NCBI RefSeq assembly: GCF_000455445.1
Contig: NZ_HG417093.1
Location: 54,643 to 118,642 of the forward strand
DNA length: 64,000 nt
Direction of reading: 5' to 3'
Source of the DNA: Hoylesella timonensis 4401737 = DSM 22865 = JCM 15640
Lineage (GTDB): Bacteria > Bacteroidota > Bacteroidia > Bacteroidales > Bacteroidaceae
The notes beneath the pieces were generated by a model. The model did not search any database, was not told the origin of the DNA, and saw only the letters and a list, made by a program, of their open reading frames with translations. Positions 1 to 59,827 of this stretch are shown piece by piece. The position numbers were made by a program, and so were the translations under genes. Numbering within the stretch: position 1 is the first letter of the stretch; each line of letters opens with the position of its first letter.

Positions 1-61
1 GACAGTTTTTTATATGTAATCAAATGGCTCCTCATAATTTTTGGTAAGAGTGTTAGACGTA

Positions 62-449
62 TTTGTCCTATTATTTTACCAAAAAACGGTCATCCAAAAT
101 CTTCAAAATAGAAAAATTTAATAGGCAAACGCACAACAAAAATGGGCTGATTTTCACAAAATAAACGCCTTTTCAAGCTGAATCATTGATTTTACGCTCT
201 TGGAAACACGCTTTAGAGGTGTTATTCACATGTAATAACCGCATTAAAGCATGCAAATTGCAGGCTTATCTCAATGCTTCAATCGCAAAAGAGCGGTAAA
301 AATAGAAAAGAAAAGAGATGAGTTTGTTGTAACGTACATAATAACAATGAATTATAAACATTGCTCATAACTCGCGTATTTGCGATCAACTTTGAAGTTG
401 GTTGCAAATACGCGAGTTATGAGAGGCACTTTGTAAAGATAATTCAGCA
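62..449 (-). repeat. Dispersed ~389-bp element, copy 1 (reverse orientation)
   Basis: The reverse complement of this segment matches 24771-25160 and 34936-35324 over its whole length by eye. Read in element orientation it begins TGCTGAATTATC at 449, carries a 60-nt hairpin at 364-423 (arms CTCATAACTCGCGTATTTGC and complement), continues through the GCATGCTTTAATGC and AAAATCAGCCCA blocks, and ends with the GACCGTTTTTTGGTAAAATA...GGAC block at about 62-105. No credible protein is encoded. It has no transposase and no obvious target duplication, so a MITE-like or structured-RNA element is an inference. Confidence 0.85.
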
Positions 450-1219: not shown

Positions 1220-3340
1220 ATGAATAAAAAGGAAAATTTATGGCTTATCATCCTATTGTCGTGTATGGTGATGAGCAATAGTACGTTGGTGAGTGCGCAG
1301 GATATAGAACACATACCTCGCCAACATCTAAAAGATACCATTACTTTGGGCGAGGTAGTGGTGAAGAGTAAGCGACAAATTGTTACGCCCAATAGTATCA
1401 GTACCACGCTTACTCACGAAGACATTGCTCGTGCGGCGGGTAAGTCTTTGGCGTCGATGTTAGAGAACGTCAGTGGGGTGAGTATGCTTCAGACGGGTTC
1501 CAACGTTGCCAAACCCGTGATACACGGCATGTATGGCAACCGAATATTGGTAGTGAGTAGGGGAGCAAGGCTTACTGGTCAGCAGTGGGGTATCGACCAC
1601 GCACCCGAAATAGATAAGAATGCTTATAATGACGTGGTGGTAGTGAAAGGCTCTGAGTCGGTAAGATATGGTGCGGAAGCATTGGGTGGTATCATTTTGA
1701 TGAATGCCAAACCCTTGCCGTATGGCTCGAAAGGTGTTCAAGCCGATGTGATGAGCTACTATGGAAGCAACGGACGGCAGATAGGAGCGGTAGGACAAAT
1801 GCAGGGAACGCTGCCTTTTAATCGCCAAATAGCGTGGAGCTTGCAAGGCACTTTTGAACACTCGGGCGACCGAAGTACGGCGGCTTATCTGCTTAACAAC
1901 ACGGGCATGCGGCAACGCAACGCTGCTTTTTCGTTGGGATACCAGCATGACCAGTGGCGCGTAGAAACGGGGTACAGCTTGTTTTGGCAGAAAATGGGAG
2001 TGATGCGTAGTGCGCAAATGGGTAACGAACAGCTGTTGCAAGAGCGCATCAGGATAGGGCAACCGGTAGAGTTTACGCCTTTTACGTATCAAATAGATTA
2101 TCCCTTTCAGCGTGTGGCGCACCATTCGGCTTTCTTTAATGTTTATTATCGTCCGTCATCTTCCATGAAATGGAGTTGGGAAACCACCTATCAGGCAGAT
2201 GACAGACGTGAAAACAGAATCAGGAGAATGAACCACTCGGACATACCTTCTGTTAGTTTACGTCTGCAGTCATTGCAAAGTCAGTTGCACGGTAGCAGGC
2301 TGTTCAATCGCTGGAAAGCCGAGTGGGGAGTTCAAGGTATGCTCATGAAGAACAGTAATGAGCGCGGTACGGGCGTTGTACCAGTAATACCCAACTATAC
2401 AGAAACAACGTTTGGCACTTATGCCATCGCTAAGTATTTGGGCGATATCTGGGGGACAGAGGCTGGTGTGCGTTATGACAATCAGCTCACTCGTGCCGAT
2501 GGATACGATTGGACAGGTCATCGATATGGAGGCAACAGGCATTTTGAGAACGTTACTTTCACGTTAGGTGGTCATCAGCATTTAGGAAATCTGTTGACAT
2601 TGGCGACCAATTTTGGCTTGGCATGGCGTGCACCGCATGTCTACGAACTGTACAGCAATGGCAATGAACTAAGTTCTGGCACGTTTGTGAAAGGCGATTC
2701 TACGTTGCGTTCAGAGCAAAGTTACAAGTGGGTTACGTCGTTATGTTATCATGATTCTTGGGTACATGCTCGTATAGATGCGTATTTACAGTGGATCAAT
2801 CATTACATTTACGATTATCCTACACGGCAAAACGTGGTAGTAGTATCGGGAGCGTATCCTGTGTTTCAGTATGTTCAGACCAACGCCTTGTTTCGTGGGG
2901 TGGATGTGGACGTGCATCTTTATCCGCTACAGACGCTCGATTACAGGGTTTATGGTTCATGGATATGGGCAAACGAACAACGAACAAAGGCATATTTGCC
3001 GTACATTCCGTCGTTTAAGTTCACGCAACAGCTCACTTGGACACCCGCTTTTCGTGTCGCATGGCAGCCTTCTGTGGGCATTGAACATCGCTATGTGGCT
3101 AAGCAACGCAGGTTTAATGTGGCTACCGATCTAACAGACGATACTCCTGCGGCATACCATTTGGTGGGCTTTAACTGTGGTGTTACCTGGAAAATGCCTC
3201 ATCATCAACAACTATCCTTGTTGTTTGAAGGAACCAATGTGTTGAATCAATTATATAAGGAATACACCAATCGGAGTCGTTATTACGCCCATGACCTTGG
3301 GAGGGACATTCGTTGCACCCTTCGTTGGAAGTTGAATTGA
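1220..3340 (+). CDS. TonB-dependent outer-membrane receptor, probable metal or metallophore uptake
   Basis: The 706-residue product has a signal peptide (about 1-26, ending VSA), a short TonB-box-like segment and then a plug domain (about 50-155). The plug contains SLASMLENVSGV and HGMYGNRILV, features of the small ZnuD/CirA-like receptors rather than of SusC, since there is no carboxypeptidase-like N-terminal domain. The remainder is a beta-barrel rich in alternating aromatic residues. ATG 1220 follows AAGGAG by 11 bases, an unusually good ribosome site for this genome. The next gene, 141 bp downstream, is a His-rich lipoprotein probably co-transcribed with it. A role in zinc, copper or haem uptake is inferred from the neighbours; the ligand cannot be read from the sequence. 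Confidence 0.88.
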   Translation: MNKKENLWLIILLSCMVMSNSTLVSAQDIEHIPRQHLKDTITLGEVVVKSKRQIVTPNSISTTLTHEDIARAAGKSLASMLENVSGVSMLQTGSNVAKPVIHGMYGNRILVVSRGARLTGQQWGIDHAPEIDKNAYNDVVVVKGSESVRYGAEALGGIILMNAKPLPYGSKGVQADVMSYYGSNGRQIGAVGQMQGTLPFNRQIAWSLQGTFEHSGDRSTAAYLLNNTGMRQRNAAFSLGYQHDQWRVETGYSLFWQKMGVMRSAQMGNEQLLQERIRIGQPVEFTPFTYQIDYPFQRVAHHSAFFNVYYRPSSSMKWSWETTYQADDRRENRIRRMNHSDIPSVSLRLQSLQSQLHGSRLFNRWKAEWGVQGMLMKNSNERGTGVVPVIPNYTETTFGTYAIAKYLGDIWGTEAGVRYDNQLTRADGYDWTGHRYGGNRHFENVTFTLGGHQHLGNLLTLATNFGLAWRAPHVYELYSNGNELSSGTFVKGDSTLRSEQSYKWVTSLCYHDSWVHARIDAYLQWINHYIYDYPTRQNVVVVSGAYPVFQYVQTNALFRGVDVDVHLYPLQTLDYRVYGSWIWANEQRTKAYLPYIPSFKFTQQLTWTPAFRVAWQPSVGIEHRYVAKQRRFNVATDLTDDTPAAYHLVGFNCGVTWKMPHHQQLSLLFEGTNVLNQLYKEYTNRSRYYAHDLGRDIRCTLRWKLN

Positions 3341-24770: not shown

Positions 24771-25160
24771 TGCTGAATTTTCTTTACAAAGTGCCTCTCA
24801 TAACTCGCGTGAAATCATCCAACGGCAAAGTTGGTCGCAAATACGCGAGTTATGAGCGATGTTCGTAATTTGTTGTTATTGAGATGGTTACGCTTTATAG
24901 TCCTCTTTTCATCCCCATTTTTACCGTTTTTTTGCGACTAAAGCATTGAGATAAGCCTGCTATTTGCATGCTTTAATGCCGTTGAAGCATGTGAATAACA
25001 CCTCTAATACATGTTTCCAAGAGCGTAAACTCAACGTTTTAGCTTCAATCAACGTTTTATTTGTTAAAATCAGCCCATTTTTGCATGTCGTCTGCCTATT
25101 AATTTTTTCTATTTCGCAGATTTTAGATGACCGTTTTTTGGTAAAATAACAGGACAAAAA
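24771..25160 (+). repeat. Dispersed ~389-bp element, copy 2
   Basis: Full-length copy running from TGCTGAATTTTC to AACAGGACAAAAA. The hairpin at 24797-24856 keeps the outer stem (CTCATAACTCGCGT with its complement) but has a changed centre: CCAAC/GTTGG replaces CAACTT/AAGTTG, so pairing is kept although bases differ. The AAGCATTGAGATAAGCCTGC, CCAAGAGCGTAAACTCAA, AAAATCAGCCCATTTTTGCA and TAGATGACCGTTTTTTGGTA blocks match copies 1 and 3. It lies between the divergently transcribed yitT-family and rluA-like genes. Confidence 0.88.
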
Positions 25161-25523
25161 CATGATTTCGAGAGTGCTATCGTTAGTCCTTAACTTCATC
25201 CCTTATGACACGGTGAAATTGTAGTCGAGTGTCCCAATATCCTCTTACAAGCTATATTTTCGTCTCTTTGGTGTTTGTTCGTTGTTCAATAGCCATCTAC
25301 CATGCCCGAAGTAAGCAATGCGATTCGTTGGATGCGATAAATTTATAGTGGGAGCCAAAGAACAAAGATTTTTTCATATTTAAGTCCCTTTCTCAACTGA
25401 AAGAGCCGTGCGGTGAACCCTAAAATAAAGCATGAATGCGGTGGTATCTCGTATAAAGTCCGTACTTTTGTAGCGGGTTAGAAAATTTCAGCCTTTACTT
25501 TGAGGTTGGTTTGCTTCACAGTC
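25161..25523. other. Intergenic DNA before the RluA-like gene
   Basis: About 360 bases with no supportable gene. No consensus promoter was located with confidence; TACTTTTG at 25463-25470 (GTCCGTACTTTTGTAG) is a plausible -7 box. Confidence 0.5.
25463..25470 (+). promoter_or_regulatory. -7 box TACTTTTG of the RluA-like gene
   Basis: Matches TAnnTTTG and lies about 53 bases before ATG 25524. A -33 partner was not clear. Confidence 0.5.
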
Positions 25524-27248
25524 ATGGCTTTTGAACGACCTCCTTTTATGCACACTTCCATGATTCAACGTGAAAATTCCGTAGACAAAGGTTTTGAAGC
25601 TCATTGCTTTCATCCACTTAGCACCGATGTGGAGCGTCCCCAGCAATTGAATAATCCCTTCAATTATCGTCCGCATCCGCTCGCTCTTTTGGCGGCAGAG
25701 CAGTTGCAGCGGTATGTGGCATCGCAACCAGCATGGCAGGAAGAGATTGCATTAGGAAAGATGTTTGGCGTTTTGGTAGTGGAAGATGCCCAACATTCAT
25801 TGGGCTATTTAGCTGCTTACTCGGGGCAAATCGGTGGGCGTAGCAACTGGCATGGATTTGTGCCTGCGGTGTTTGACTATCTTGAGCCACAGGGATATTT
25901 TAAGAAACAAGAGGCTTTCATTACTCAAATCAATGTAAGGGTAAAGTGTTTAGAGGTTGATGAGGACTACCAAACGTTGAAAACGAAGTTAAAAGAATAT
26001 GACCAAAAGGCAGCTGCCCAACTGACATTGTTTCAAGAAGAGATGAAAGTCGCCAAAAAAAGGCGTGACCAACAGCGTAGAGAACTAACTCTGAGTGTAG
26101 AGCAACAAGCTGCCCTTATCAAGGAGAGTCAGTTTATGAAAGCCGAATATAAGCGACTCAAGGAACGGTTGCGCATAGAACGGATACCACTTCTGCAATT
26201 ATTAGCCGAACACGAGCAACAAATGGAAGATGCAAAAGCATTACGCCGAACCTTATCGGACGACTTACAACGCTGGCTTTTCTCACATTTCGTCATGTTG
26301 AATGCGAAGGGAGAGCAACGTAACCTCCTTACCATCTTTGCCCAAACAGCGCAAGGTGTGCCGCCAGCAGGTGCAGGGGAGTGTTGTGCGCCCAAGCTTT
26401 TGCAGTATGCTTATCTACACCGTTTGAAGCCTGTCTGCATTGCTGAGTTTTGGTGGGGCGCTTCTCCCAAGACCTCTGTACGTCATCATGGGCAGTTTTA
26501 CCCTGCTTGTCGTGGCAAGTGCCTGCCCATTCTTTCTTTTATGTTGCAAGGTTTGAAAGTGGATGCAGAGCAGTCTGTCGAAGAGCAACACAGTCAACTT
26601 CATGTCGTTTATGAAGACGATGCCCTCATTGTTGTGGACAAACCAGCAGGTATTCTTTCTGTCCCGGGACGTTCTCAGCGCCCTTCTGTCTACTCCATTT
26701 TGCGAAGTCAGATGCCCTCGTCGGTTGAGTTGTTTTCCGTCCACCGCCTCGATATGGCTACATCGGGTTTGCTGATATTGGCAAAAAACAGTGTGGTTTA
26801 CCGTCATCTGCAACGCCAATTCAGGACACATCATATACAAAAGGAATATATTGCCATCTTGGAAGGAGCGTTATCTCAGCGGAAGGGCGTTGTTACGCTG
26901 CCCCTTCGTCCTGACCCCTTTGACCGTCCGCGGCAGGTAGTCGATTGGGAGCATGGCAAAAAGGCTGTGACTTCCTATCGTGTGTTAGGTGTACGACACG
27001 GTAAAACTTGGGTAGTTTTGTTCCCCGAGACAGGCAGGACGCACCAGTTACGCATGCATTGTGCGCATGCAGAAGGGCTCAACTGTCCTATCTTGGGCGA
27101 CCCACTCTATGGTCATCATGCCAATCGGCTTTACCTGCATGCCACTTCTATTACCTTTGAGCATCCCATTTCGGGACAACTCCTCACGCTACATGCCCAA
27201 CCACCCACTGACTTTCAAGATGTTTTTATGGGGAGAAAGCATAGATGA
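25524..27248 (+). CDS. RluA-family pseudouridine synthase with long N-terminal coiled-coil region
   Basis: The 574-residue product carries a C-terminal RluA-type pseudouridine synthase domain (about 355-570). It has the catalytic motif HRLDMATSGLL (Asp at about 409) and the later GRTHQLRMHCAH and GDPLYG signatures. It should isomerise uridine to pseudouridine in rRNA or tRNA. The N-terminal half is unusual: a globular segment (about 20-135; NPFNYRPHPLALLAAEQLQ) and then about 100 charged residues likely to form a coiled coil (about 145-250). This extended form is known in Bacteroidota and some gammaproteobacteria. ATG 25524 is taken rather than TTG 25500 because the latter is not needed for the conserved region. 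Confidence 0.87.
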   Translation: MAFERPPFMHTSMIQRENSVDKGFEAHCFHPLSTDVERPQQLNNPFNYRPHPLALLAAEQLQRYVASQPAWQEEIALGKMFGVLVVEDAQHSLGYLAAYSGQIGGRSNWHGFVPAVFDYLEPQGYFKKQEAFITQINVRVKCLEVDEDYQTLKTKLKEYDQKAAAQLTLFQEEMKVAKKRRDQQRRELTLSVEQQAALIKESQFMKAEYKRLKERLRIERIPLLQLLAEHEQQMEDAKALRRTLSDDLQRWLFSHFVMLNAKGEQRNLLTIFAQTAQGVPPAGAGECCAPKLLQYAYLHRLKPVCIAEFWWGASPKTSVRHHGQFYPACRGKCLPILSFMLQGLKVDAEQSVEEQHSQLHVVYEDDALIVVDKPAGILSVPGRSQRPSVYSILRSQMPSSVELFSVHRLDMATSGLLILAKNSVVYRHLQRQFRTHHIQKEYIAILEGALSQRKGVVTLPLRPDPFDRPRQVVDWEHGKKAVTSYRVLGVRHGKTWVVLFPETGRTHQLRMHCAHAEGLNCPILGDPLYGHHANRLYLHATSITFEHPISGQLLTLHAQPPTDFQDVFMGRKHR

Positions 27249-34746: not shown

Positions 34747-34935
34747 ATCAAAATACGGCTATCTTCAGGCGAGTAATTGATAAAAATGGAAAAACAAATG
34801 GGAAGGGTAAGAGTTGTTACGCTACTTTTTCGTGTACACAATTCTTACATTGAAGACTCATATTTTTATAGCGAAAAGGCTCTTATCAGATAGCGCATAT
34901 AAAATTGTTGGTGCGCAGTTTCAGCGACTCCTCTA

Positions 34936-35324
34936 TGCTGAATTATCTTTACAAAGTGCCTCTCATAACTCGCGTATTTGCGAACAACTTTGAAGTTGGT
35001 CGCAAATACGCGAGTTATGAGCAATGTTTGTAATTTGTTGTTATTGAGAGTGTTATGTTTATAATATCGTTTTTCATTCATAAATTTACCACTTTTTGGT
35101 GGCTGAAGCATTGAGATAAGCCTGCAAGTTGCATGCTTTAATGCGGTTATTACATGTAGATAACACCTCTAAAGCGTGTTTCCAAGAGCGTAAACTCAAT
35201 GTTTCAGCCTGAAAAGGCGTTTATTTTGTGAAAATCAGCCCATTTTTGTAGGGTGTTTGCCTATTGATTTTTTCTATTTTGAAGATTTTAGATGACCGTT
35301 TTTTGGTAAAATAACAGGACAAAA
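34936..35324 (+). repeat. Dispersed ~389-bp element, copy 3 (best hairpin)
   Basis: Runs from TGCTGAATTATC to ATAACAGGACAAAA. The hairpin at 34962-35021 has 22-bp perfectly complementary arms (CTCATAACTCGCGTATTTGC-GA and complement) and an inner CAACTT/AAGTTG stem, so almost the whole 60 nt can fold. Downstream blocks match copies 1 and 2. It lies between the divergently transcribed HAD and GH3-like genes. The origin may be a MITE-like element or a mobile structured RNA; no transposase is linked. Confidence 0.9.
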
Positions 35325-35561
35325 GCAACGCATTTCTATCTCTAAAAATGATAAAATTGAAGTGTCATGCTTGTTACAAGAAGAAAAGCAAAAGAAGCGC
35401 ATGAGGTAAGCCGTGCAATGCGTTTCTTTCCTAAAGGCTGTTGTTGAAACAAAACGAAAAACTGGTTTTTCATCATCAGCCACCTATTTATAATAGAAAG
35501 AACTCCGTGTGCCATGTGTCTTAAAATACGTGAATTGTGCGTTTGTTACAAAAGATTAGGT
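35325..35561. other. Intergenic DNA before the GH3-like gene
   Basis: No supportable gene. It leads into the -7 box at 35562. Confidence 0.4.
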
Positions 35562-35601: not shown

Positions 35602-37137
35602 ATGGGGCTAACAAGTATAGCAAGCCAATTCTTTCTGTCGCGTCAAAAAGAGATTGAACGATGCGCCAGACACACTGAATCAATGCAACAGCAGGTACTG
35701 ATGAACCTGTTGGAGCAGGCTAAAGATACAGAGTATGGGCGTAGCCATCTCTTTGGGAGTATAAAGTCGTATGAGGAATATGTAAAAAATGTGCCTGTCT
35801 GTACTTATGAAGAGCTGAAAAGTGACATTGACCGCATGCGGCATGGGGAAGAAAATGTGTTGTGGCCCGGTCAAGTGAAGTGGTTTGCCAAATCGTCAGG
35901 TACAACTAATGATAAGAGCAAATTCATACCCGTGTCTAACGAGGCTCTTCATCACATCCATTATCAAGGAGGAAAAGACACGGTGGCACTCTATCTCCTT
36001 AATCGTCCTGACAGTCGGATTTTCGACGGAAAAGCTTTGATATTAGGAGGAAGCCACTCTCCAAATTATAATGTACACAACTCTTTAGTGGGAGACCTTA
36101 GTGCAATCCTGATAGAAAATATCAATCCTCTTGTTAATGTGATGCGTGTGCCGAAGAAGTCTACGGCACTTTTGCAAGATTTTGAAGTAAAACGAGATCG
36201 TATTGCAAAGGAAACATTACATAAAAATGTAACGAATATCTCAGGAGTTCCCTCTTGGATGCTGTCTGTATTGGTGAGAGTGATGGAATTAAGTGGCAAG
36301 ACGCATTTGGAAGAGGTATGGCCTCACCTTGAAGTTTTCTTCCATGGAGGCATCCCTTTCACGCCTTATCGTCCGCAATATGAGCAACTCATCACCTCTC
36401 CGCAGATGTGTTACATGGAAACCTATAATGCCAGCGAAGGATTCTTTGGCATACAAAGCGACTTAGATGATTCTTCCATGCTCTTAATGCCGGATTATGA
36501 TGTGTTCTATGAATTCATTCCGATGGATGAATTTGGAGTGAAGGAAGCCCCCACAGTAGTACCATTGGAGGGCGTTGAGCTGGATAAAAACTACGCCATG
36601 CTCATCTCTACATCTTCTGGATTGTGGCGTTATATGATTGGTGATACTGTGAAGTTTACTTCAAAAAATCCCTATAAATTCATTATTACTGGTCGTACAA
36701 AGTACTTCATCAATGCCTTTGGTGAGGAATTGATTATGGACAATGCAGAAAAAGGGTTGGCTTATGCGTGTGAGCAAACGGGTGCAGAGATTTCAGAATA
36801 CACCGCAGCACCCGTATATATGGACAGTAATGCCAAATGTAGACACCAATGGTTGATTGAGTTTGTCAAAAAACCAAAAAGTTTACAACAATTTGCGTCT
36901 ATCTTAGACAAGCGTTTGCAGGAATTAAATAGTGACTACGAAGCCAAACGTTTTCACAATGTCACACTGCAACATTTGGATATCATCATGGCACGTACCA
37001 ATTTGTTTAATGATTGGCTGAAAATGAAAGGGAAAATGGGTGGACAGCACAAGGTTCCACGTTTGTCTAATAGTAGAAAGATTATTGAGGAATTGCTCGA
37101 ACTCAATACCTCTGAACAAAATCTTGTTAAGGGATAA
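35602..37137 (+). CDS. GH3-like acyl-adenylating protein
   Basis: The 511-residue product belongs to the GH3 branch of adenylate-forming enzymes, best known from plant auxin and jasmonate amino-acid conjugation. It shows the ATP motif SSGTTNDKSKFIPVS (about 98), YNASEGFFG (about 275) and MIGDTVKF with the following TGRTKYFINAFGEEL (about 345-380). The bacterial homologues are found in Bacteroidota; substrates are unproven, and acyl activation for amidation or thioester formation is the family expectation. It is the first gene of a co-oriented set with an Ig-like lipoprotein (16 bp downstream) and a DUF3108 protein. Confidence 0.87.
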   Translation: MGLTSIASQFFLSRQKEIERCARHTESMQQQVLMNLLEQAKDTEYGRSHLFGSIKSYEEYVKNVPVCTYEELKSDIDRMRHGEENVLWPGQVKWFAKSSGTTNDKSKFIPVSNEALHHIHYQGGKDTVALYLLNRPDSRIFDGKALILGGSHSPNYNVHNSLVGDLSAILIENINPLVNVMRVPKKSTALLQDFEVKRDRIAKETLHKNVTNISGVPSWMLSVLVRVMELSGKTHLEEVWPHLEVFFHGGIPFTPYRPQYEQLITSPQMCYMETYNASEGFFGIQSDLDDSSMLLMPDYDVFYEFIPMDEFGVKEAPTVVPLEGVELDKNYAMLISTSSGLWRYMIGDTVKFTSKNPYKFIITGRTKYFINAFGEELIMDNAEKGLAYACEQTGAEISEYTAAPVYMDSNAKCRHQWLIEFVKKPKSLQQFASILDKRLQELNSDYEAKRFHNVTLQHLDIIMARTNLFNDWLKMKGKMGGQHKVPRLSNSRKIIEELLELNTSEQNLVKG

Positions 37138-44808: not shown

Positions 44809-44978
44809 TTTTGCACCAGTGATTTGTGATTTGATGTGTACGAACTCTTTGCATGGAGTCGTGCGACGATGAAGAATTGAGTTTTTTTTGACGTTTTGCA
44901 TGGTGATTGAAGCCGCAAAAAACACCCTGTAAAACTGTCAAAAAACTTAACAAAAGGCTTTCCATAACTTCAATATTT

Positions 44979-45327
44979 TCACGCAGATGATAAGTTGCTC
45001 GCAAATATCGCAGTATTTGAAGAGTTTTGTAAGTGTCAGAATATGAGTTACTTATCTTGAAAAGTGCAGATAATGTTGCCTTTCTTTCCTTTGTTTTAGT
45101 TGCTAAAGCAATGCTTTAAGGGCGTTAAGTCATGTTGATAAGCCCTTTATCCCATGTTTACAGCACTCCAAAAGTATTACTTTAAGGGCATTCACCCATT
45201 GCTTTAACAAAATCAGCGCATATTTCGAGCTGTTTTAGCTGCATTTTTGAACCAAAATGGGGTGTATCTTCGTCTATTTTGAAGATTTTTCCTGACCGTT
45301 TTTTGGTATTTTTTTAGGACAAAAAAG
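44979..45327 (+). repeat. Dispersed element, decayed copy 4
   Basis: A degenerate hairpin region (CGCAGAT...GCTCGCAAATATCGCAG) is followed by GCTTTAAGGGC, AAAATCAGCGCATATTT and the well-kept end block TTGAAGATTTTTCCTGACCG followed by TTTTTTGGTA and AGGACAAAAA. It abuts the 3' end of the glycosyltransferase gene at 45333. The end block is far better conserved than the rest. Confidence 0.65.
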
Positions 45328-45332
45328 AGCAT

Positions 45333-59138: not shown

Positions 59139-59294
59139 TGTTCATTTTTGGCTCTAAAGATGTGAGAAAAACGAGGGCGATTATCAACTTGTATCAGATT
59201 TTTGTGAAGAACGCAGTGCTTTATTGTCCATTTTTCTCACGACATTCCATCCTTCTACGCTTTCTGTTTGTACGATATTTTTGCTTTCTCTGAA
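59139..59294. other. Intergenic DNA before repeat copy 5
   Basis: No supportable gene or clear terminator. Confidence 0.4.
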
Positions 59295-59580
59295 TGCTGA
59301 AATATCTTTACACGACCCCTCTCATATTCCTCGTATTTTTCACCAACTTATAGATTGCTTGCAAATACGCGAGTTATGGCGAAGTTTCTATCTTGTTGAT
59401 ACACAGCAAAGTATGAAAAATAGGTGCGAATGTGCGCTGGAAAAGTAATGAGATAACGCCACAAAAGTAATGGGATAAGGTGCTTATTCGCATGGGTTTG
59501 TGCCCTTAACTCTTTATGATAGGAGCGTTATTTGCATGCTTTAAGCCCGTGAAGCCATATTTTTGCTGTTTATAAGGCTT
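59295..59580 (+). repeat. Dispersed element, decayed copy 5
   Basis: Begins TGCTGAAATATCTTTACA as in copy 3, then CTCTCATA...CTCGTATTT and a right arm CGCAAATACGCGAGTTATG-like (GCAAATACGCGAGTTATGGC). The left hairpin arm is degraded. The TTGCATGCTTTAA-GCC block is still visible near 59531; the end block is missing or unrecognisable. Confidence 0.65.
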
Positions 59581-59827
59581 ATAACTTGACAAAAAACCAT
59601 CTATTCTTTTCTATTTTAGCACTTTTGGAGACCCCCAAAAAGTGTCAGAAATGTTGACAAAAAGCGGAAAAAGTGTGTTGTCAACACATAAGAAAGATGG
59701 GCAAATACTTATAAGAAAATGCTTTTAATTTTGGGCATGTAATTTACAGAGGTGCTGGTATTATGACAAAAAAGCCCTTGTAGATGTTAATATTTGTTTC
59801 TTAACTTAAAATGGAAAAGAAAACACT
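59581..59827. other. Intergenic DNA before the lipocalin-like gene
   Basis: AT-rich, no supportable gene. GTGTTGTCAACACA at about 59676-59689 is a short palindrome-like stretch. Confidence 0.4.

Follow-up and report, generated by a model that had tools for sequence, protein, structure and literature searches.

The window analysed here, a stretch of 64,000 nucleotides, carries a non-coding unit of 389 bp at positions 34936-35324 of the plus strand. Two further full copies of this unit lie at 24771-25159 (plus strand, again 389 bp) and at 61-449 (minus strand, with the start at 61 or 62), and two decayed copies were found at 44946-45331 and 59291-59594, both on the plus strand, where they matched the family profile with E values of 3e-22 and 4e-17, respectively. 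Genes adjoining copies in the window encode a TonB plug domain protein (1220-3340), a pseudouridine synthase (25500-27248) and a GH3-family protein (35602-37137). The first-pass annotation had recognised five copies and assumed that they share one unit. All five proved to be real, and the alignment of the three long copies held over the whole unit, the two decayed ones aligning in part. The long copies scored E values of 1e-139 to 2e-146 against the profile, in the building of which these three were included, and the copy at 61-449 was additionally supported by its end pattern. However, the family is not limited to five members: it is spread over the genome, with about 79 detected copies and fainter ones besides.

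Copy number and anatomy of the 389-bp unit

In the window's own genome (G000; 3.22 Mb in 25 contigs), patterns for the 3' and 5' ends of the unit matched 70 and 69 times, respectively (at most three mismatches), whereas the reversed control gave 0 matches for both, which rules out chance. A DNA search of the genome returned 133 candidates, and the best 40 of these were nearly all exactly 389 bp long and 79-88% identical to the focal copy. When the stretches around the pattern sites were searched with the profile, 67 copies exceeded 300 bits, and interrupted and weak copies were found in addition; the count of 79 takes in decayed copies and two that were added by hand. When 20 gap midpoints were searched, 9 yielded further decayed copies (E < 0.05), the reversed control yielding 0. 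Since copies decay, both at these midpoints and at the two loci in the window, single copies are dispensable. Pairwise identity among 53 copies averaged 80%, and the identity to the nearest neighbour ranged from 74 to 92%.

Several copies are interrupted. Two of them, at C5:10515 (L068) and C6:50829 (L052), are cut at the same core position (~210) and adjoin an ORF of 353 aa that by eye is relaxase- or mobilisation-like, the pair being 92% identical; the repeat may here serve a mobilisable element as its integration site. The copy at C7:197365-200486 (L044) is split by ~2.6 kb containing a 390-aa ORF, transposase-like by eye, and an assembly gap. N-runs split several other copies of this genome, and a number of contigs of the sister species (G045) end inside copies.

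The near-constant length had been taken as the sign of a discrete unit, and this was confirmed: 65 of the 67 full copies align with the focal copy without a gap in columns 1-389, and the remaining two have one inserted base each. In a profile of 489 columns, length differed in 14 of the 67 copies, with just 2 of these changes falling in the core. Within the family profile of this genome, near-invariant blocks alternate with variable spacers of constant length, and conservation fades outside the named unit, over ~100 bp on its upstream and ~35 bp on its downstream side. The upstream weakly conserved zone (34836-34935, core -100 to -1) rises in information from ~0.1 to 0.9 bit towards the core. 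The core opens with the 5' leader TGCTGAATTWTCTTTACAAAGTGCCT (34936-34961, core 1-26), which is near-invariant across the family, and continues with a 60-bp palindromic block (34962-35021, core 27-86), whose right arm AAATACGCGAGTTATGAG served for the pattern search of the genus. The motif GTTTGTAATTTGTTGTTATTGAGAGTGTTAT follows at 35026-35056 (core 91-121) and appears by eye to be related to TTTNGTAATNNNTGATNNTNAGNNNGTTA of other species. The interior (35099-35265, core ~164-330) consists of degenerate 22-bp units that were recognised by autocorrelation, their borders being set by eye. The 3' tail TTTTTTCTATTTTGAAGATTTT..GTTTTTTGGTAAAAT..GGACAAAA (35269-35324, core 334-389) closes the unit, and the conservation profile places a weakly conserved zone downstream of it at 35325-35360. 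All these features are on the plus strand.

Coding capacity and RNA structure

The element is non-coding. It lies between genes and holds no protein, as had been proposed: no conserved open frame was present in any of the six frames of 53 copies, and variability had no 3-base periodicity, so a protein-coding role was rejected. The 60-nt hairpin noted earlier is near-perfect in the focal copy. Many of the 67 copies, however, lack pairing at several of its positions; columns 33 and 80, for example, read A-T in 43 copies and A-A in 24. The suggestion of a structured RNA was not supported. No helices emerged among the 70 best covarying column pairs, which were ranked without a formal null, and the RNAalifold consensus was weak, at -7.5 kcal/mol on the plus and -2.7 kcal/mol on the minus strand, compared with means of about -88 and -85 kcal/mol for 20 single copies. 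A comparison with Rfam yielded 0 matches at the gathering threshold within the window.

Inheritance, divergence and gene conversion

A flanking protein is 99% identical in the sister species and 85% identical in two other genomes, G207 and G062. Among 37 stretches sampled from the sister species (36 from the best matches and one taken by gene), 34 matched the stretch around a copy in the window's own genome over at least 571 bp at an identity of at least 88%. The remaining three comprise a partial ortholog (L341), a stretch at a contig end (L333) and one that matches only within the element (L349). The elements at the sampled loci are vertically inherited, and with 34 of 37 copies at matching loci, the first-pass idea of a mobile unit is not supported for the present.

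Usable long ortholog alignments were obtained for 21 of the 37 stretches and 16 entered the column analysis; those left out lay at contig ends, were broken by gaps, had no single long match or were not ungapped over the full length. In the 21 alignments, 815 of 8169 core bases differed (10.0%), with 2 indels. The 100-bp flanks were 10.0 and 11.4% divergent and had 14 indels per 3986 bases (6 per 2043 aligned bases in the upstream zone, which thus tolerates them, and 8 per 1943 within 100 bp downstream), and divergence beyond 200 bp, where mostly genes lie, was 3.4-3.9%. The core therefore changes at the rate of its flanks but hardly ever in length, which is under constraint. Columns that are conserved among paralogs were 1.0% divergent between orthologs and variable ones 22.6% in the 16 pairs, although this contrast is partly circular.

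The differences between orthologs were clustered beyond what column variability predicts (110.6 versus a null maximum of 62.0 for 16 pairs and 40 null sets), and in 9 of the 16 pairs clustering exceeded all 40 null sets. Exact runs common to other copies explained 98 differences, the null maximum being 54 (15 null sets). Columns 208-259 of L326, for instance, are identical to those of L338, yet they differ at 13 positions from the ortholog of L326. This clustering and the exact matches to other copies establish that short-tract gene conversion takes place between copies. Of 57 strongly diverged segments, 93% were closer to a paralog than to the ortholog, but this figure proves little because the identity to the best paralog was no higher there (0.896) than in undiverged segments (0.918). 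G207 and G062 each carry an element at the orthologous position of one locus; it is strongly diverged, and its net change in length is 0 bases over 337 profile columns in G207 and +2 bases over 374 in G062.

The ends of the copies likewise lend no support to a unit that is mobile at present. In a search of 53 copies for target-site duplications (lengths 4-9, offsets -110 to 2 and 386 to 439), no class clearly exceeded 5 shuffled pairings, the best excess being 2 copies versus 1-2 in the shuffled pairs at 8-9 bp. The consensus ends contain just two T/A-rich inverted matches of 10 in 12 positions (-93/398 and -54/372), which were counted without a null, and the outer borders of the element are not sharp. 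One locus is without the element in G062 and G207, yet the adjoining sequence differs too. A MITE was rejected for the lack of target duplications standing out from shuffles and of convincing inverted ends. Plasmid or phage origin was also rejected, as blastn found no match in either collection, in which records near the own genome may be absent.

Relatives in other genomes

Of 398 genus genomes, 122 contain the right arm of the palindrome with at most one mismatch and 276 gave no match; single matches mean little because the reversed control pattern occurred in 11 genomes. High counts were obtained for the window's own genome (59), the sister species (46), G016 (36), G267 (34) and G075 (23). 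The named matches listed were mainly rumen Prevotella MAGs, together with Prevotella sp. khp7, P. illustrans, Hallella colorans and Leyella lascolaii, and a few of them bear names outside the group. Judged by eye among the matches listed, G016, G091 and their relatives have the leader, the palindrome arm and the tail in common, and their interiors are unrelated. The distance from TTACAAA in the leader to AAATACGCGAG in the arm is 54-55 in anchored copies of G000, G045, G016 and G091. The arm-to-tail distance is 269 in most anchored copies of G000 and G045 and in one copy of G062, 279-283 in 8 of 10 distances of G016, 282 in two copies of G091 and 292 in two other contigs, the remaining contigs giving 163-281.

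Conservation of position in the distant G016 was set aside as too weak: an element lay on the same side of 5 of 8 flanking-gene orthologs, the background being 0.20, but this background is too lenient, two of the five share one element and orientation agrees in 2 of 5. Long C-rich repeat arrays of the CCTCCCC...CCCTCCCAAGGAGGGG type adjoin elements at L035 and L040 of G016 and represent a second repeat family. A repeat resembling PINSR, which is compared below, occurs in G100, G017 and G353 (e.g., L362:1086-1271). It consists of ~four 22-bp units, most of which bear AAAA and TTTT tracts ~10 bp apart, and first-look candidates numbered 285, 329 and 152, respectively, of which the best 40 were scored in each genome. 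Some PINSR-like copies give weak profile matches (E 0.09-1) in the register of the motif GTTTGTAATTTGTTGTTATTGAGAGTGTTAT.

Spacing along chromosomes

Copies keep apart in two species. The smallest of 66 gaps in the window's own genome, counted with pieces within 3.6 kb merged as one copy, was 8.1 kb; none was below 8 kb, compared with 7.4 expected (P 0.0004). Gaps of 8-16 kb numbered 29 versus 11.4, an excess owed in part to long zones without copies in the null. Such zones also make the gaps irregular over whole contigs (CV 0.97 versus 0.86 for random), the regularity being found inside the element-bearing spans. One of these zones, C4:217000-300903, extends to the contig end and encodes four integrases, type I restriction genes and a topoisomerase among 9 picked ORFs. 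It probably consists of integrated mobile elements, and copies therefore lie outside mobile-looking DNA. By eye, the zone also holds YD-repeat-like proteins.

A contiguous survey of ~437 kb of the same genome gave 23 copies (E ≤ 0.05; reversed control 0) and 21 gaps, with a mean of 16.0 kb, a minimum of 8.6 kb and a CV of 0.39. The spans were self-chosen, the C4 part continuing the window and the C1 part being known as copy-rich. Among 20000 random sets placed within the element-bearing spans, 41 attained the CV and 120 the minimum, and either span alone gave P values of 0.02-0.09. When the C4 part was compared with random intergenic gaps, P was 0.067 for the CV and 0.002 for the minimum, this null being partly circular because most long gaps hold an element. 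In G016, 43 copies were found in 381 kb (reversed control 0), with a mean gap of 8.8 kb, a minimum of 4.9 kb and a CV of 0.35; random sets reached this CV in 0 of 20000 cases and the minimum in 23 of 20000. A quantisation of gaps at 12 kb was only suggestive (P 0.02-0.12) and is not claimed.

Periodicity of the interior and helical phasing

Autocorrelation of core positions 150-330 in the window's own genome peaked at 44 bp (z 3.9) and 22 bp (z 3.3), the 95% shuffle maximum being 3.1, so that its 22-bp signal just barely exceeds shuffles. The same period was found in G016 (z 12.5, n 9), G118 (z 9.5, n 4), G091 (z 6.3, n 4) and the PINSR-like repeat of G100 (z 8.1, n 10), where 95% shuffle levels across families were 3.0-3.3. 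The interior of G267 has a period of 21 bp (z 5.9, n 10), and no significant period was detected in G075 (z 2.8). The interiors are species-specific, and all but that of G075 have a period of 22 or 21 bp.

A/T dinucleotide steps in the core are phased with a period of 10.75 bp (band 10-11.5 bp). All 67 copies exceeded the 95th percentile of 298 element-free window tiles (median 3.84 versus 1.91), and column-permuted copies had a median of at most 2.82 in 100 sets. The 95th percentile of tiles was also exceeded by 6 of 9 copies of G016, 2 of 4 of G091, 7 of 10 of G267 and 3 of 10 PINSR-like copies, but by 0 of 10 of G075, though their median was raised, and 0 of 5 of G118; the comparison is rough, since the tiles for G118, G091, G267 and G075 were taken from G016, and related copies are not independent. 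Phased A/T steps are a property of curved or wrapped DNA, and such DNA would be the reason why the core tolerates substitutions but not indels.

Discussion

On the best reading, the element is not a gene, an RNA or an active transposon. We tentatively favour the view, to which we give a little less than an even chance, that this vertically inherited DNA with its helical phasing serves as the platform on which a nucleoprotein complex assembles and helps to organise the chromosome. In its favour are the gap-free alignment of nearly all full copies, the scarcity of indels in a core that otherwise diverges like its flanks, the low divergence of columns conserved among paralogs, the A/T phasing, the recurring 22- or 21-bp period, the distances that copies keep and the nearly unchanged length of the diverged elements in G207 and G062. 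The platform would have a fixed 5' module, which includes the palindrome, and a fixed 3' tail; between them would lie about seven degenerate 22-bp units, each spanning two helical turns. One DNA-binding protein or several might assemble on one face of its helix, candidates being a gyrase- or HU-like wrapping protein or a dyad binder that coevolves with the species. If assembly takes place on one face, point changes would be tolerated, whereas insertions would break the phase. Complexes formed between genes every ~8-16 kb could then anchor supercoils or domains of the chromosome. Several observations stand against the platform: the PINSR-like family of G100 is irregularly spaced, the copies of G118 are unphased, the 22-bp signal of the window's own genome is marginal, gaps over whole contigs are irregular, each span alone and the intergenic comparison of the C4 CV give only modest P values, copies decay, and 276 of the 398 genus genomes gave no match to the palindrome arm. 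In addition, transposition with target immunity would likewise produce a minimum distance between copies.

Target immunity is known from Mu, Tn3 and Tn7, and the best rival to the platform is an old transposon-like family that spread under such immunity and is now fixed, slowly decaying and mixed by gene conversion. The minimum distance and the parking-like gaps are what such a history would leave behind, as are the many decayed copies, the presence of all orientations to genes and the related families in other species. Nevertheless, we regard it as unlikely, given that target duplications were not above shuffled pairs, inverted ends were unconvincing and the 37 sampled copies of the sister species included no clear new insertion when they were compared with the window's own genome in that direction. 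An indel-free conserved interior is unexpected for dead copies, and immunity accounts for a minimum distance but neither for the phase nor for a protected interior. The repeat could also be functionless, with its constant length merely a by-product of gene conversion, which is indeed strong here in both the clustering and the differences explained by other copies. However, conversion handles new indels and substitutions alike unless it is biased, and the conserved columns are 22-fold less divergent than the variable ones, a contrast that is partly circular. As spacing and phasing would remain unexplained as well, we hold this to be very improbable.

Two further explanations concern transcription. 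Copies are intergenic, and according to rough ORF calls in which split copies were counted twice, 34 of 76 contexts with a gene on either side have these genes in divergent or convergent orientation, which is compatible with a bidirectional promoter or another transcription-boundary element tuning its neighbours. A precedent is the promoter activity of BrickBuilt, segments of which drove lacZ in E. coli according to the part of the source that was available (PMC4596501). Against this, neighbour orientation has no clear bias in the same rough calls (21/21/20/14), the neighbours in the window are ordinary genes of differing families, and neither 36 phased helical turns nor the mutual distance of copies would be needed, which makes such an element quite improbable. 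A promoter of one particular gene family was rejected, since the neighbours differ and their orientation has no clear bias. The high conservation and the potential hairpin of the focal copy would agree with a multicopy non-coding RNA, structured or unstructured, but covarying pairs that form no helix, the weak consensus fold on both strands and the lack of a gathering-threshold match to Rfam in the window render a structured one doubtful, and an RNA of either kind seems to us very unlikely.

Returning to the phased platform, a bolder form of it, which we consider somewhat unlikely, is that Prevotella chromosomes possess a built-in ruler, in which phased, length-constrained elements every 8-16 kb anchor topological domains by way of a protein that changes its binding specificity from one species to the next. 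Such turnover of binding specificity would keep the 22-bp phase while the sequence changes, and in bacteria it would parallel the fast evolution of satellite or centromere arrays. It is an open question how the borders of bacterial supercoil domains are set and whether they have fixed sites. If the ruler exists, the question of fixed border sites would become directly testable, because the sites are named, copies can be removed or extended by a few bases, and many species offer natural variants of the elements. PINSR and similar repeats would then gain a candidate role.

Comparison with known repeats

The BIME/REP sequences of enterobacteria are dispersed intergenic palindromic mosaics, some of which bind gyrase and IHF. 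In its general way of working, the 389-bp element would resemble them; it differs in being longer and of fixed length, and its copies keep apart. A literature search, outside of which most subscription papers lay, found no report of the 389-bp family, its spacing or its phased interior, and the available part of one paper (PMC5771137) contains nothing closer than BrickBuilt and PINSR. We therefore call the element a dispersed intergenic repeat with properties that we have not found described.

As far as the accessible part of its description goes (PMC4596501), the BrickBuilt MITE of Porphyromonas gingivalis has 19 copies with a variable number of bricks and short terminal inverted repeats that are IS5-family-like. 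It resembles the 389-bp element in having tandem units, each about two helical turns long (23 bp in BrickBuilt), between a leader and a tail, and in being intergenic and restricted to a species. The 389-bp element differs from what is given there (PMC4596501) in having no convincing inverted ends, a constant length and ~80 copies.

The nearest published relative is PINSR, a 188-bp repeat of Prevotella intermedia and P. nigrescens that was described in 2015, without a function in the portion of the report at hand (PMC4755523). From its place downstream of tnaA and its abundance, we infer that the PINSR-like repeat of G100 is PINSR itself. This repeat, presumed to be PINSR, is shorter than the 389-bp element, and the best match of the 389-bp profile to it was not significant (E 0.03). 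It also differs in not being regularly spaced (39 copies in 381 kb, CV 0.74, P 0.25), a result for which the reversed control was not clean, with 23 matches, probably since the units are palindromic. At the same time, the G100 repeat has an interior with a 22-bp period and short motifs in common with the 389-bp element, and PINSR, like that element, is a high-copy, intergenic and non-coding repeat.
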